From: Hymenoscyphus infarciens
Taxonomy: Eukaryota > Ascomycota > Leotiomycetes > Helotiales > Helotiaceae
Assembly: GCA_001414345.1 (NCBI GenBank)
Contig: LLCB01000172.1
Span: 56,497 to 120,496 of the forward strand
Length of the DNA: 64,000 bases
Direction: 5' to 3'
Below the pieces are notes generated by a model. That model had not been told where the DNA came from, made no database searches, and saw only the letters and a program-made list of their open reading frames with translations. Each line of letters begins with the position of its first letter. The first letter of the stretch is position 1. This document shows positions 28,662 through 43,647 of the stretch, piece by piece. A program made the position numbers and the translations under genes.

Positions 28662-29571
28662 ATCTCTCTCTTTTAAAAAAGACTTATTCTAAATCTTTAT
28701 ATTATTCTTCTTATTATTAAGATTAAATTAGAATAGTATAAGTATTATATTAATATTTTAATCGAAGGTTATTAAGTAAGAAGTTAGTTTAGATCTAAAG
28801 TATATCTAACTTAGTTTATAGATACTTATAAAAGAGACTTTATTCTAGTTGTTTTAATATTAAAGTAAGTATTTATATTTGCTAAAAGAGTATAATCTCT
28901 ATTCTAACTAGGCTATCTTATAAGTCAGAGAGTATTTAGAGTAAATTTAGAAGCGAAACGTTAAGAGGTAGTAATATCTTAGCTAAGAGTTTACTTTAAA
29001 AGAGAGTACTAATTTATATCTAATTCTAAAAAGAATTCAAATAAAAAACTTCTAGTCTAGCTAGAAGTAAAAGAATAGAAAGAAAGTAAGAAAATAAGAC
29101 TCTATACTAGAGTTAGTAAGGTTTTACTAGTAGCTAGTTAAAAAGAGTTATTACTGAATATTATTAAAGTTTGAAATTATTGTCTAAAGTTTAGAATAAT
29201 AAAAGAGATAGTTACTAGTACGATATTTATTAGTTCTAATATATAAACTATATTACTTAGACTAAATAGAGTATCTTATTTTCTCTTTAATTTAAATATA
29301 AACTAAGATACTCTATAAGAGCTTTTTATATCTTTCTATTCTACTTTCTTTTATACTATATAACTAAGAGTAGTTAGACTTAAAGTGTCTAAGCTTTCTA
29401 TAGTAGAAACACGTTCTACTAGCTAGGACTCGGTCTATAACTATAGTCTTTTAAGGTTTACTAGTAGATATAGATATTTAGAAAGTAGAGTAAATAGTTA
29501 AGAATTCGCTATTAGATTATAGAGAGTTCGATACTAGACTAGATAGAGAGGTATTCTCTTTAACTAATATA

Positions 29572-29925
29572 TGTGACGGCATGCCGTCCTGCATAGCCGA
29601 GATTACATGGCATATGCCGTGTTTCGGTAGTTGTTGTTTTGTATTGTCTAATTTAGGAAGGTTACGTACGTCTGTACGTCTGTCTAGACTTTTAGACGTA
29701 CTTCGTAGGGTTCGGGCTTTTATATTAGCCGACGTATGTCGTTGTTCGGTTTCGTACCCCTTTTTATATTATCCAAAACCTCTTGTATATAGCAGCCTAC
29801 TCTTAGAGTTAGAAAAGGCTAGTTATTGTTTTCTTTTGTATTAGAGCCTAGTATCTATATACGTTATTCTGTCATATATACTCTTATATGCCTCTACTAT
29901 AGTTATATATATTTCGTGCTGTTAT
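29572..29925 (+). repeat. 5' LTR of inner retroelement (heavily RIP-mutated)
   Basis: 354 bp, same length as the 3' LTR. Carries TpA where the 3' LTR still has CpA or TpG, especially in its last 150 bp. Confidence 0.85.
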
Positions 29926-32345: not shown

Positions 32346-32758
32346 CCGAACGACCTCTGACTCTACTCTAAACTTTTAAACTTTTTAAACTTTTGAATTT
32401 TTAAACTTTTTCTGATTTTAAACTTTGAACTTTAAACTTTTTCCGACCTACTAGACGGATCGGACTACACTCTTTTAGCAGACGCGAATACTTGCTTTTA
32501 ATATTGAAGGATTAGAAACGAAGTCTCTTTACAAGCATTTACGAAATCGATTCGGAACCGACATCTCACCTTGCTTACGATATTACGATAAACAAATAAA
32601 TAAAGCGTCTTCGAACCCGGGTTAGCTACGATTCAGACCCTAATCTACCTTTTCGTTTACGACAAATACGACAAATACAATAACTTACGCCATCCCGATT
32701 CAGCCCTGAACGATAAGATAGACAGACTCGAGGACGAGTCTTTTTCAAGGGAGGGGGA

Positions 32759-33112
32759 TGTGACGGCATGCCGTCCTGCATAGCCGAGATTACATGGCAT
32801 ATGCCGTGTTTCGGTAGTTGTTGTTTTGCATTGTCTAATTTAGGAAGGTTACGTACGTCCGTACGTCTGTCTGGACTTTCGGACGTACTTCGTAGGGTTC
32901 GGGCTTTTGTATTAGCCGACGTATGTCGTTGTTCGGTTTCGTACCCCTTTTTGTATTGTCCGAAACCTCTTGTATATAGTAGCCTACTCCTAGAGTCAGA
33001 AAAGGCCAGTTATTGTTTTCTTCCGTATCAGAGCCTAGTATCTACACACGTCATTCTGCCATACGCACTCCCACATGCCTCTACTGTAGTTGTGTGTATT
33101 TCGTGCCGTTAT
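32759..33112 (+). repeat. 3' LTR of inner retroelement (nearly unmutated)
   Basis: 354 bp, retains CA and TG dinucleotides. An open frame of 118 codons at 32768-33124 is fortuitous. Confidence 0.85.
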
Positions 33113-34486
33113 AATATAGTTTAGTATTACTTCTTATCTAGAGCTAAAAGATTAGATACTATTTCAACGAAGTTATAGTTCTAACGTCTCTTAAGTACTA
33201 TAGCTAAGTTTTAGAGCTATAGTATAATCTTATTCTATATATAGAAGAACTATTCTAATTCTAGTATTTCTCTAAGTATAGCTATACTTAAAAAGTAACT
33301 CTTAAAATTAGTAAAAGTTTCTTTAGTATAATCTTATATTTATAAAGCTTTAAAAGTATTCTAAGTATTCTTCTTTCTATAGCTAGTTAAAAAGTATATA
33401 TATAAAAGAGTAATTATATCTTCTTAATCTCTAAAAGTAAAGTAAACTAATTCTAATTTAGACTAGTAATAGAGCTTAAGATAGGTCTTAGCTAATCTAG
33501 TTATTATATTTTAGATAAGTGCTTTTTAGATTAGTAATAAATTATAATAATTAATATTTATAAGAAGTCTATTATATACTAATATTTTCTATTATTAGTA
33601 TATAGATAAAATACTATTATCTAAGAGTTTAATCTTTTTAGTAATCTTATTTTTTAAGAGTTAGAAAGTGTTTATACTATGTTTAGAACCGAGTTAGATA
33701 GTCTATTATTTAGAGAAAGTATTAAGAGTAGTAGCGTCTCTTACTAAAAAAGATATAAGTTTAGACTTAGAAGTAGAGAAGAGTTAGATTAGAGAGAGTT
33801 TAGTAGAGTAGCGTTAGCTAATCGAGAATAGCTTAGAGATGAAGTAATTTATTAACTTTAAACTTCGTATATTATTTAGTTTATACTTATCTCTATTATA
33901 GCTATTTAATCCTTTATTCTTTAATTCTCTACTTCTAAAGCTTATCTAACTCTCTATATCTCGTCTATATTTAAAAAGTCTTACTTATCTTTATTTCTTT
34001 AGAATCTTTTACTACTTTTAAGCGTATAGATATAGTTTAGAGAGAGTTCGAATAAGAGTCTAAATAAAGAGTATCTTTTAGAAAGAGAGATATCTCTAGA
34101 AGAGAGTTATTTAACGTTTTTAAGTAGAACTAGTTTTAATATTTTAATAATATTAGTTTTAGTAGAAGAGGTTAAAAGAGTAGATTTAGACGTTTTTATA
34201 ATAATAAAGTGTTTTATTTTTTATCTACTATTCTAAACCTTATATAGTAAACTCTAAATAGAGAGAGTTATTAAAAGCTTTAAAGATACTTAGCGTATCT
34301 CTCTCTCTATAATATATTAAGAATATAATATTACTAGCTATTTATAAAGTCTCTAGTTTTATAGCTATTTAAGCTTATCTTTAGTATAACTAATCTAAAT
34401 CTAGCTTAAAGTAAAAAGAGATACGCTAGCGTACTCGAGTAAGATAGTAGAATAGACTATCTCTAGTAAAGTTAAATTTAGTCTTT

Positions 34487-37395: not shown

Positions 37396-39245
37396 ATGTT
37401 GTCCTACCGCAGCTTCGGTTTGACGGATTTCTTGTTGACCTTCTGGGTCACGGTGGCCTGCGGCACAGATATGACACTTTTTGGCTATGTATGCAACTTT
37501 TCCCTTTATCCCCCCTTTTGAACTCCTAATCTTAGTGGTCGGCAGCAAGTTTTATCTTTACTCACTGCTCCCGGCTCCCGAGTCAACGAGAAGAAAATAT
37601 GCTAATTCGTTGCAGGACCAAGGTGTATTCGGCAAGTAGTCACCTCAATTTTTTTTCTTTTTTTCAATAGCTGACAGAAGCGTGTAGGTGGTGTCATTGT
37701 CACCGATGATTTCCTGGTATTCGGGGCAATGCTAATAATATTGCAATCGTCACGTCAATCTACAACATCGGTTGCTTTCTTGGTGCGATAGTTGCCATGT
37801 GGCTTGGAGACAAACTGGGTCGCAAAAAGATAATTCTCATTGGCACAACGATTATGATGCTTGTAAGTTGTTCGTTCTGAATGAATTACTAGCTCTAACA
37901 CAAACAGGGCGCTATTTTACAAATCGCAGCTTCTTCATTTAGCCTTTTGATGGCAGGCCGGATAATAGCAGGAATTGGAAATGGCATGAATACCTCCACG
38001 GCCCCGGTCTGGCAATCGGAAACCTCCAAAGCTTCTATGAGAGGAGAACTTGTTGTCATCGAGATGATTCTAAATGTTGCCGGTTTCTCGCTTTCCAATT
38101 GGATTACTTAAAAGGTTCGCGGAGGCTTGTCCTGGCGTTTTCCTCTTGCTTTTCAGCTGGTTTTCATCTTTGTTCTGTACGCGACTGTTCCTTGGCTTCC
38201 GGAATCACCACGTTGGCTCATTGCAAATGGCTATATTGATAAAGCTCGACAAATTATTGCTGCTCTCGAGGGTCTCGATAGTGACGACCCAGCGATTACT
38301 AAAGAGGTCAAAGCTAGTTCAGATGCTCTACACCACGAAGCCAAAAATTCAATTTCTTGGTGGGATCTTCTTCGCGGCAGAACTGGAAATCAGAAAGGAA
38401 CATCGACAATCCGCCGATTGCTACTGGGTGTAGGCACGCAGGTCATGCAGCAGCTTTCTGGAATCAATGTAGATTCTTACTACCTCCCAACCGTTCTCAT
38501 CGAATCGGTCAAATTGCCGACGGACACAGCCCGTCTGATCGCTGGAGTCAATTCGGTCTCATATTTGTGCTTTTCCTGTTTTGCCATCTACTTTATTGAA
38601 AAATTAGGAAGGAGGAACTTGATGATTTACGCCGCCGCTGGTCAGGCATTCTGTTACGTTTTCATTACCGTTCTCATTCGGTACACTCAACTCCCTGGTT
38701 ATGCGCATCAGGAACAGGTTGGAGCGGCCTCGGTCGCCTTTTTCCTCTTGTACTACCTCTTTTTCGGCATTGGTTGGCAAGGAGTTCCATGGCTTTACCC
38801 TACAGAAATAAACTCGAGTTCTATGAGAACGAAAGGTGCTGCGCTAGGCACCGCTGCAAATTGGCTTTGCAGTTTCATGGTGGTAGAAATCACGCCCATA
38901 GGAATCCAAGCCTTGGAGTGGAGGTTCTACATCATCTGGATGGTGTTCAATGCTAGCTTCGTTCCCATCATCTATCTCTTCTACCCCGAAACGTCGGATC
39001 GTAAACTCGAGGATATGGATCGTTATTTCAGAGAGAATCACGACATTTTTGTTTTTAGGTCTAAGGATGCCATTTCTGTCAAGAGACCCTTTGCATATGG
39101 CGAGACAGAGCTATACGAGAATGGTTCTTGGAGGTTGTCTGATGAGAGTGAAGATTCTTGGTCCTCTCTGGATAGCAAGCAGAGTGGGAGTGGGAAGCCG
39201 ATTTTTGCTCATAGTGAGAACCGTAATGGGAGTTCGTCATGCTAA
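37396..39245 (+). pseudogene. MFS sugar transporter pseudogene
   Basis: Sugar-porter family (PF00083) gene with at least two lesions. Exon 1 is 37396-37488; exon 2 begins at 37616 and ends at 37637 before a GC-AG intron; exon 3 starts at 37687 with GGVIVTDDFL. Between that motif and GNANNIAIVTSIYNIGCF (from about 37726) the frame shifts. A further intron starts at 37864. After GFSLSNWIT an in-frame TAA (38109-38111) stands where homologs continue with about 11 residues to WRFPLAFQ; about three codons appear deleted. From 38127 to 39245 the frame is open and keeps PESPRWL, GVGTQVMQQLSGIN, FIEKLGRRN, WLYPTEI and PETSDRKLEDMD. Twelve helices would be expected. Sequencing error cannot explain both lesions easily, but should be excluded. 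It lies beside the 12-kb RIP block. Confidence 0.8.
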
Positions 39246-40095: not shown

Positions 40096-40820
40096 CTACT
40101 TTGCAACCTCGGCCGCGGCCTCACGTTTGTACTGTCCATAATTTGCATATGAAGAAGGGGGAGTATCAGGGTAATCGCCGTAATCAAGATACATAGTTAG
40201 CTTTGAGGTTTATTATTGAAGTCAAGGAAAACTTACCACCGTATGTACCATATGATTCGACTTGGGGAGCTGGAGCTGGTTCAGGGGCAGCAGCTGGGGC
40301 AGCGCTTTCCTCTCTTTTATATGAACCGTAATCCCCGTAAGCCCCGTAAGCTCCATATTCTGTCCCGTGAGTTAGTTACTTCTTTAAGAAAATGCGTTGG
40401 GAAATTGTGTGAAACAGTCCAAGACAACTACAAGTATTAACCGAGAAGGTTTAGAAGAATTGAGAGACTGAATTTTCAATTGTTCTAAGTCTTCTAGAAC
40501 AATAACCGGTGTTTGAGTATTGACAAACCCTCGTAAAAAGCAAGTGTTTCTGTAAATGACTGGGCTAGGAAACTTTTTGCTTACCAGTTACTGGCGTGGG
40601 CGTAGGTGTTGGAGTCGGTTCAACGGGCGGGTATGCACCGTAATCAACAGAAATAGTTAGCTTCGAGGTTTATTATTGATGCCACAGAAAACTTACCACC
40701 ATATGTACCATATGATTCGACCTGAGGAGCCGGAGCTGGCGCAGCTGGCTCAGACTGAGCAACTGGAGCAGCAAGTCCGACGCTGACGCATGCTAACAGA
40801 ACGATTTGCTGGATACGCAT
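40096..40820 (-). CDS. Secreted Tyr/Gly-rich Kex2-processed peptide precursor (candidate RiPP precursor)
   Basis: Minus strand. Start at 40820 gives a clear signal peptide (MRIQQIVLLACVSVGLAAP). Best model: exons 40697-40820, 40585-40638, 40237-40359 and 40096-40178, 127 aa. Two repeat units share APAPQVESYGTYGG followed by A/D-Y-P. Each leads to a Tyr/Gly segment ending in a dibasic site: DYGSY-KR (residues 74-75) then EES, and NYGQY-KR (118-119) then EAAAEVAK and stop. KR followed by Glu-Ala/Glu-Glu is the usual Kex2 plus dipeptidyl-aminopeptidase pattern. Introns 1 and 3 are both 58 nt, near-identical, with GTAAGT donors and GCTAAC branch sites, but end ACG instead of AG; splicing there joins both repeats in phase. 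Without splicing the product stops after 58 residues. A divergent UstYa gene starts 1.88 kb away. Product chemistry is inferred, not shown. Confidence 0.6.
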
Positions 40821-42699
40821 GATGAAGATGCTTTCTGTGAGATTCAAAGTGGAGAGAGATGAGATCAAAAGTGATGGTGAAGGAGATGTTTGAGTAGAAG
40901 GTGGTAGGACAGATGGTGGTGATGATGATGAGAAAAAAGAAGGAGAATGCTTCAGACTATATAGAAGAAGTTTATGAGCAATGAGGTATACCTTGACTTG
41001 GGAATATTATTTTAGGTACCGGCATCCGAAGCGATCGACATGATACGAGAGAAAGCCATGTCCCTTGGAACCAAGAATGAGCACGCAAGTTTGACAACTC
41101 GCTGCCTCATCCTCAGCCACGTTTGCTTTCTCTTTGATGATCTCAGAAAGCCCGGCCCAAAATACACCACTTGTGTGACCAGTGACGAGAAGATTGAAGG
41201 ACAAGCTTTGGGAGCAAACCTAGCTTTCCCCGCTTTTCCGGTCTTCCTTTTCGGAAAACCGTTCAAACCCAATTATGCCAGGTGGAAATCACAGGAAATA
41301 TTGAAAAGGCAGGTGCATAATGCAATAGGCCAGCCCGTAAGGAATCTGATTTGGTAAAGGTCGCATCCGCTTCAACAGCTGTCATCCCCGGCTGTGCATT
41401 GACCATAACTCTTAAAGCTTTCCTCGTGTCTGCACTTATGGTTTCTGCTGAGTTACTGAGTAGCTGCACATAACTTGGCATCTCGGTGGACAGTTGATAT
41501 TATATTCTTACCCGGAGAACCGGCGACGGAATAATGTATGGGTACGAGTACTCGTAGGGAGCGCATTTTACAGGACCAGCCCCGCCATGTAAGCTATACG
41601 ATCACGAATATTATTCATCACCCGCATGCGGGGAGTCAATTGGTAGCTTTCTGCTCATTGGGCACATTGGGGCTCTTCTAAACCGGGGCTGGGGGCTGGA
41701 AAGTAAGTCTGAGACTCTGAGTGAGATATCATATCCCAGATATGTTTCCATATGCTGTACGAGTAGAGGTACTTTGGTGGAGACTGAATTTGTAGGTGTT
41801 CTTTAGTCTTTACACTGAACTTTCCGGGCCCTTCAGCACCAGCATGAGAATTGAATGCCACTCCACTCCTCGCCGCTGGCCCTACAGCAACCAACCGACT
41901 CGGACCCTGCAACACGGTAATTCCTTCAACGCAATCCCAACTCATCTAAACCTCATTCTCACGCCATCGTCAAATGATATCAATCAAGGTGCAATCAACC
42001 CCTAAACAAGCAGAAATACATGGGTCCAAGCAGGAGGCCCGAATCAGCAAAGAGTTACTGGACTCTTCACGGATGTCGGTCGCTGCAATTCGCATTCAAT
42101 ACTCGTTCGTAATCACGAAATCTACGTACTGAGTCTACTGACCACGCTTCTCCGCAGCTACCACATCATATGATCGTTGATCTTCAAGTTGACGCTCGTA
42201 TTCCTGTCGGTGTGCTACAACATCATGTACCCCGCTGGTTGACAAATTTTGGTGCAGTTTAACGTCTTTTCCGGCTTCGTTCGTTCAGAACTCGGCTCCC
42301 CGTCAGCTGACGGTGGATTCCCTCGTATTAAAGCTTTCTCGAGAGTCGCTAAGCAAACAAGTTGGCCATATGCAGAGACTTGGCTGCGGATCCAGCCCTA
42401 TTCCTTCGTGTTCCTTGCTGCCGGTACAAGATACGACCAGCCTTATCATGGCCTTCCGCATCATGGATGAGGGCATCGTTCCCGGAAAAATGAACCCATC
42501 GCGGCTTACCTTGTGTCACTACCTATTGCTATTCTTGGTAAAACGTTTACGTGTACCGGTCGATTGACAAGGGTTTGAGTGACGCCTTTTTGAAGTGTCA
42601 CAATTCCGTCCGGTTTATCTTCAATTATCGAAGCTCTTCTACAACCCAAGCACAATCGAAGTTCATTTCTTCGAGTCAAAGTTCAGCATTCCATTTACA
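40821..42699. promoter_or_regulatory. Divergent region between precursor and UstYa genes
   Basis: 1.9 kb. No supported gene. A minus-strand open frame at 41263-41481 has a protein-like look (RKALRVMVNAQPGMTAVEAD) but no identifiable family and no exons that join to it; it may be a relic. The precursor leader near 40870-40940 carries GATGGTGGTGATGATGATGA. Shared regulation of the two flanking genes would have to act here. Confidence 0.4.
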
Positions 42700-43647
42700 A
42701 TGTACACTCCTCTCCAAGACCAGAGTGAAAGCTCTCAGTCATCCGCAGATGATCAAGATCAACTACTCGAGAAAGAATCTCATGACTTTTCTGCCCCATT
42801 TAGACCAAGCTCCAAAGCTCGTTTTGTTATTCCGATCTTAGTTACGATAGCAACTACACTCTCTGCATTTGTATTGGGGACTTGGTTTGGAAGCCAGAAA
42901 TTTTCTCCAACAAATCGAGAGTACCTGGAGCACATCCAGAAATATTGTATGTGGCTCCCCCAAATTTCCAAACCGGAAACTAATCATGAATAGCGCCAAT
43001 CTTAAAAGAGGTCGACACATCGTTACACACTGTACTATTCAATGGTTCTTTCATGAAGGAGAATGAGTTCCGGAAAGACGCTGGACCAGAAGTAGATGCT
43101 GCTTGGGAATCGATTGGGGTCAACTGTAAGTGTTCCTTCCTCCTCCCATTCTCTAGCATTTTTGACAATGTCTCTAGACAGAAGCATCGCCGTCCCCGTC
43201 AGCGAAGCTGCTGCTTCGGGATTGGATCACACCAAAGTACAAATTAATCCCAGATATGGGGGAGGGTTCCCTGCCAACATCGAAGGACTTCATCATCTCC
43301 ACTGCCTAAACCTTCTACGCCAATCTCTCTATTTCAACTATGATTATTATCATGAGAAAGGAGAAGGCGCTTTCAAAAACGAAGACAACATTGTCAAATA
43401 TCATGTCACACACTGTCTGGATATCATCCGCCAGCAGTTGATGTGCCAGCCCGATACTGGAGTATTCGGGCAAATTTGGTGGAATCCCAAAGCACCAAAA
43501 GCTTTCGTGGACTTTAATACTGAGCACAAGTGCAAAAACTACGAGGCTATCCGACAATGGGCCGAGGAAAGACAGATCCCTGAAAAGGTTGAAAGTGATT
43601 TCTTACAGCACCCAGAAAGCGAAGATATCTACGAAGCCATTCCTTGA
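42700..43647 (+). CDS. UstYa family (DUF3328, PF11807) oxidase-like protein
   Basis: Three exons: 42700-42946, 42994-43125 and 43178-43647; 282 aa, usual for the family. A short cytosolic N-terminus is followed by one transmembrane helix (FVIPILVTIATTLSAFVLG, about residues 48-66) and a lumenal domain. The family's diagnostic motifs are intact: HHLHC at 165-169 (HxxHC) and HC at 205-206 followed by IIRQQLMC. UstYa proteins act in fungal RiPP pathways, where they catalyse oxidative side-chain cyclisation of core peptides, often at Tyr, in secretory compartments. The motifs and the GGGFPANIEGLHHLHC context give confident family placement; the substrate is inferred from the divergent Tyr-rich precursor. 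DUF3328 genes are numerous in fungi and also occur in other pathways, so adjacency alone is not proof. Confidence 0.92.

Follow-up and report, generated by a model that had tools for sequence, protein, structure and literature searches.

Does the short, secreted, Tyr/Gly-rich precursor that lies next to a UstYa (PF11807, DUF3328) gene in Hymenoscyphus infarciens belong to a dikaritin toxin pathway, or to another kind of fungal peptide system? UstYa genes are commonly interpreted as components of mycotoxin clusters, and a sequence-only reading had called this locus dikaritin-type. We find that, as far as its sequence can tell, the locus is of the KEP/UstYa kind with new features, its chemistry and function being putative; while its kind (KEP plus UstYa) is ordinary, it stands out by its breadth, its architecture and its processing signature. 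The two genes probably form a compact RiPP-like system, in which a processed Tyr/Gly precursor would be oxidised by the UstYa. The window, i.e., the whole stretch of 64,000 nucleotides that was analysed, spans positions 56497-120496 of contig C82 in an assembly of 65.6 Mb and 742 contigs with AT-rich stretches, and the features of the locus are as follows:

40096..40820, minus strand: precursor gene of four exons, 131-aa model (from gene model and homologues)
40697..40820, minus strand: exon 1, signal peptide, Ala/Pro spacer and start of Tyr/Gly block 1 (gene model)
40645..40696, minus strand: intron 1, 52 nt, with GTAAGT donor, CTAAC branch site and a TTG end, putatively used
40585..40644, minus strand: exon 2, end of block 1 and Pro/Thr linker (gene model and family consensus)
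40360..40584, minus strand: intron 2, 225 nt, GT..CAG, carrying a dispersed repeat at about 40394-40504
40237..40359, minus strand: exon 3, second Tyr/Gly block of unit 1, DYGSY-KR, spacer and start of unit 2 (gene model)
40185..40236, minus strand: intron 3, 52 nt, with a TTG end, putatively used; duplicate of intron 1 (44/52 identical)
40096..40184, minus strand: exon 4, end of unit 2, NYGQY-KR, tail and stop (gene model)
40821..42699, no strand: divergent intergenic region of 1.9 kb, a possible shared promoter to judge by the gene orientations, through which the two genes may be co-regulated
42700..43647, plus strand: UstYa (PF11807, DUF3328) gene, exons 42700-42946, 42994-43125 and 43178-43647, 282 aa

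AT-rich islands lie in the surroundings, at window 19-22 kb, 25-29 kb and 34-37 kb; with a GC content of about 18-22% measured over 2 kb, they are suggestive of repeat-induced mutation. A near-identical stretch, a repeat in AT-rich surroundings, is common to two open frames (window 29494-29841 and 32717-33121). In the adjoining sugar transporter (PF00083; window 37899-39242), an in-frame stop near 38110 disrupts the frame, which starts after it, consistent with the transporter having earlier been described as broken. Intron 2 of the precursor gene holds an element of about 100 bp with an inverted repeat (window 40394-40504) that has 8 other matches in the genome (74-79% over 67-106 nt) and may represent a small mobile element or one resembling introners.

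The N-terminus of the precursor is hydrophobic and, judged by eye, is a signal peptide. It is followed by two Tyr/Gly units, ending in DYGSY-KR and NYGQY-KR, and by spacers in which Ala, Pro and Glu abound; the 131-aa, four-exon model thereby bears out the signal peptide, duplicated units and Tyr-rich ends before KR noticed in the sequence-only reading. The units represent a duplication, visible as two 116-nt copies that are 85% identical and 460 nt apart. Each consists of a YGxYGxYGxY block that a Pro-rich linker joins to a second Tyr/Gly segment; counted from the first YGTYG to KR, unit 1 has 39 residues with 9 tyrosines and unit 2 has 24 with 7. The model has two KR and neither RR nor KK; Trp, which forms part of the pheromone core, is absent, the sole Cys lies inside the signal peptide, and the two-Cys pheromone core of the Leotiomycete type is not found. 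When exon 3 was used to search the same genome for another such precursor (E up to 1), both matches were the window locus itself.

The putative splicing of introns 1 and 3 is peculiar. Neither has an AG acceptor, and in both copies a TTG end follows the CTAAC branch site by 11 nt; joining the exons at TTG yields the family consensus with no extra residues. In a window scan for a GTADGT donor plus branch site, an AG lay within 20 nt of the branch site in 11 of 13 cases, these being candidate introns found by pattern only, and the two exceptions were introns 1 and 3. Read by eye, the next AG as acceptor of intron 3 brings an early stop before KR, while a CAG 106 nt from the donor of intron 1 skips most of exon 2 and leaves a six-base exon; both candidates were rejected. 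The sequence thus makes non-AG (TTG) acceptors probable in the two introns.

The alternative is a decaying precursor gene, with dead TTG acceptors, intron 1 retained and a stop soon after the first Tyr/Gly block, so that no KR would be reached. In its favour are the 2 of 13 donor/branch-site pairs that stand out in the window, the stop into which the unspliced reading runs and the partly AT-rich window. Yet the same TTG stands at the same distance from CTAAC in both duplicates and its use restores the family consensus; moreover, 36 human genes can use TG as an alternative 3' splice site, according to the available text of PMC2374985. The codons of the two unit copies also argue against decay: the 14 before the intron show 4 silent and no other changes and the 5 after it one silent and one other, while all six further upstream differ in amino acid, the alignment being doubtful there. 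The probability of at least 5 of 6 changed codons being silent is 0.005 for this block, which was chosen by eye, and over all 25 codons 5 changes are silent and 7 are not. We regard decay as unlikely. Where the sequence-only reading had suspected a decaying pathway, this does not apply to the UstYa gene, which is intact, but is possible for the precursor given its TTG acceptors.

Both introns of the UstYa gene are GT-AG. A profile search, proposed in the sequence-only reading, gave 154 bits against PF11807 for the last exon (cut-off 25), with no match for the first-exon piece alone. The motifs that had been called intact are indeed so in the 282-aa model, which carries the HxxHC(x)nHxxHC pattern of the family as HHLHC at residue 165 and HVTHC at 202. 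In an alignment of 50 relatives H166, C170 and H203 are invariant and H169, H206 and C207 are at least 90% conserved (P0022 numbering). The best named match comes from Hymenoscyphus albidus (83% identical over 284 positions); a PDB sequence search with a UstYa yielded no solved relative, and no relative of the UstYa was confirmed in the viral contig and genome contig collections. The genome holds 41 PF11807 matches, only one of which is on C82, in agreement with the earlier remark that no second UstYa lies nearby, and the second-closest UstYa of the genome sits on C348. Several others are grouped elsewhere (C167:58-71 kb and C169:209-226 kb) as candidate UstYa clusters.

That the two genes belong together is indicated by their linkage in relatives. 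In H. albidus the UstYa homologue HYALB_00009473 and the precursor HYALB_00009474 bear consecutive locus tags, and since the window precursor matches HYALB_00009474 (E 9.4e-14, a value that low complexity may inflate) while the adjoining UstYa matches HYALB_00009473, the pairing goes beyond chance. In Amylocarpus encephaloides and Acephala macrosclerotiorum, precursor and UstYa are found on contigs of equal recorded size (72057 and 848192, respectively), which we took as the same contig. The genes are therefore together in all three organisms that appear in both match lists, so that the Kex2-type precursor beside a UstYa gene, which the sequence-only reading had proposed comparing with relatives, recurs in each of them. 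The UstYa exon search retrieved 562 proteins, and the figures rest on the best 120 of these: among the matches listed, 3 of 55 named organisms have the precursor and 52 do not, and 15 of the 18 named organisms in the precursor lists have no UstYa among the best 120 of 562, precursor genes being short and intron-rich and thus possibly unannotated and easily missed. The gap is nevertheless real, and many of these genes may lack such a partner. Comparison of recorded contig sizes by eye revealed no further pairs among the remaining matches listed, and a filtered six-frame listing of unspliced frames showed no Tyr/Gly (YG) precursor within 10 kb of the C348 UstYa.

In a tree of 45 UstYa rows (midpoint root for drawing only), the main split, supported at 100/98, places the four precursor-linked enzymes among 28 rows on one side. 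These four form no exclusive group (2 changes), and the 24 others on their side include the powdery mildews Podosphaera, Golovinomyces, Blumeria and Erysiphe, close UstYa relatives for which no precursor was seen among the matches listed; 3 of the 27 database rows on this side have a precursor among the matches listed. Its named rows are presumably all Leotiomycetes (looked up for two). The C348 UstYa falls on the other side together with P0128, the second copy of Acephala, whose recorded contig size differs from that of the precursor's contig. Judged from the enzyme tree alone, the pattern suits vertical descent.

With the precursor model as query, 20 proteins were retrieved (E up to 1); when a profile built from 13 sequences was used, 58 of the 8000 candidates scored had an E of up to 0.01. 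Here too low-complexity matches may inflate the E-values. Combined, the searches gave 64 relatives, among which are members of five classes of Pezizomycotina: Leotiomycetes, Lecanoromycetes, Eurotiomycetes, Dothideomycetes and Sordariomycetes (the class was looked up for six of the species). Including the window precursor, at least two Y[GAS]xY motifs are present in 65/65, KR in 57/65 and Tyr directly before KR in 42/65, counts that describe proteins retrieved by similarity and do not test them. The three linked relatives have small precursors with 1-3 YKR-ended units, and none of eight relatives scanned against Pfam scored above the cut-off. A subgroup (P0007, P0009, P0142, P0145, P0162, P0163, P0168 and others) carries a short basic/aromatic tail after KR, e.g., AIDFVKRLWS or AVGDFFKKIFG, which is absent from the window precursor. 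P0146 of A. macrosclerotiorum has a Cys-rich insert between its blocks that weakly resembles an EB module (E 0.0058, below cut-off).

The processing signature lies in the spacers after KR. In 44 unique spacers Pro stands second in the dipeptide 127 times and first 10 times, a bias reached by 0 of 2000 shuffles; the Ala register is weak (88 second vs 58 first). With one spacer per protein (40 of 65 have one), 32 are in register, 2 out of it, 1 is tied and 5 have no Pro (sign p 3.5e-8, the relatives not being independent). In the relatives the spacer is a run of X-Pro/X-Ala dipeptides that mostly keep register as far as the first Tyr; in the unit-2 spacer of the window precursor the first dipeptide is EE, not X-Ala/X-Pro, and 5/5 prolines are in register. 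X-Ala/X-Pro dipeptides after KR are the Ste13 signature of alpha-pheromone precursors (PMC6339444), and the accessible part of this source states that the precursors of ustiloxin and phomopsin are not predicted to carry it. Profile matches in the genome comprise one Kex2-type P-domain and three DPPIV_N, the latter on two contigs. Because the Ste13 register puts the start of the core just before the Tyr/Gly block, the released peptide would be the long Tyr/Gly segment. The conserved unit bounded by KR and dipeptide spacers is this longer segment and not the YGSY/YGQY around which the cores had been placed by the sequence-only reading; the cores are thus likely to be the whole segments of 39 and 24 residues.

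We propose that the precursor would enter the secretory pathway and be cleaved by Kex2 after KR, with a Ste13-like dipeptidyl aminopeptidase trimming the N-terminus at X-Ala/X-Pro and Kex1 the C-terminus. The products would be Tyr/Gly peptides in which a Pro-rich linker connects a YGxYGxY block with a second Tyr/Gly block. By analogy with CctR, in which the double HxxHC motif binds two coppers according to the text available (PMC12435403), the adjoining UstYa would be a membrane-anchored binuclear copper enzyme that oxidises the tyrosines, most likely giving side-chain cross-links (cyclisation). It shares with CctR and other DUF3328 enzymes the HxxHC(x)nHxxHC motif and, by eye, an N-terminal membrane helix; CctR, however, hydroxylates a non-ribosomal cyclic peptide, whereas a precursor-derived substrate is presumed for the window's UstYa. 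Cyclisation is not certain, as DUF3328 members have been implicated in hydroxylation and halogenation as well as in macrocyclisation (PMC12435403, as far as the accessible text goes).

About as improbable as decay, in our estimate, is that the products are structural or adhesive cell-surface peptides, cross-linked into the wall by the UstYa or other oxidases with no small cyclic product. The long cores with their 9 and 7 tyrosines would suit this, the repeats of ustiloxin, phomopsin and asperipin being 13, 14 and 8 aa, and so would the Kex2-cut Rep1 of Ustilago, which gives water-repellent peptides required for aerial hyphae. Against it stand the small size of the precursors and their few units in the three linked relatives, the adjoining UstYa gene and, by eye, the absence of a wall-anchor signal.

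A strict dikaritin locus, i.e., an ustiloxin- or phomopsin-like toxin pathway, is much less probable still. The ER signal, the KR (Kex2) sites, Tyr in the core and the adjoining UstYa gene are shared with these systems, but the window model has no YxIx core (Y-x-I occurs in 4/64 relatives, once each), has two units only and belongs to a family with Ste13-type spacers; tyrosinase (PF00264) and S41 peptidase, the companion genes searched for, have 0/31 and 0/4 of their genomic matches on C82, and close UstYa relatives occur even in powdery mildews. The dikaritin-type label therefore fails in its strict sense, while the earlier remark that no peptidase lies nearby holds for S41. The asperipin-2a locus likewise has a single UstYa and a core containing Tyr (PMC7329392, text available in part), yet its repeat has 8 aa, whereas the units here measure 24 and 39 residues and combine YGxYGxY blocks with a Pro linker. 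Least likely of all is an alpha-type mating pheromone precursor, which the precursor family resembles in its KR sites followed by X-Ala/X-Pro dipeptides (the window's own unit-2 spacer starts with EE and has its prolines in register) but from which the window precursor differs in its Tyr/Gly cores without a Trp/Cys motif and in its UstYa neighbour, pheromone genes being, three exceptions aside, not beside DUF3328 genes in the accessible text of PMC7329392.

The compact, UstYa-oxidised RiPP-like system that we favour is nearest to the KEPs, which like the window precursor are secreted and KR-separated. According to the part of PMC7329392 available, repeats containing Tyr occur more often where the KEP gene adjoins a DUF3328 gene (65.6% vs 38.2%), and KEP type G-6 is Tyr- and Asp-rich with 46/49 members beside DUF3328 genes; compared by description only, G-6 could be the same family as the window precursor. 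The first KEP pipeline, as given in the accessible text of PMC6339444, requires at least four fragments after KR/RR cutting and so misses genes carrying one or two KR sites; the window precursor gives three fragments. Six YG motif strings had no match in the literature searched, supplements aside, and the available portions of surveys of UstYa, Kex2, DUF3328 and Ste13 (including PMC7329392, PMC6339444, PMC12048977, PMC7099791, PMC12435403 and PMC5006380) name no YG family. It may have been counted before, e.g., as G-6, though no description was found.

With similar precursors in five classes, we may be dealing with an old, little-studied peptide system and not with a one-off toxin cluster. The breadth of the precursor family would favour a general role, for instance in development or signalling, over that of a host-specific toxin. 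Going further, one might tentatively envisage an old Pezizomycotina system of Tyr/Gly peptides, processed in the style of alpha-pheromones, cross-linked at many of their tyrosines by a dedicated UstYa copper enzyme and serving development or signalling, not toxicity; this is possible, though we hold it with some doubt. In the window's species, the non-AG splice of the two GT..TTG introns may even switch the peptide on and off. One- and two-unit members would have been overlooked by surveys demanding three or more repeats. The putative substrate, whose units carry 9 and 7 tyrosines at a spacing of mostly three residues, is unlike the published cores described in the sources available. If true, a widespread UstYa with its own Tyr/Gly precursor would offer a testable case of a UstYa role outside toxin pathways.
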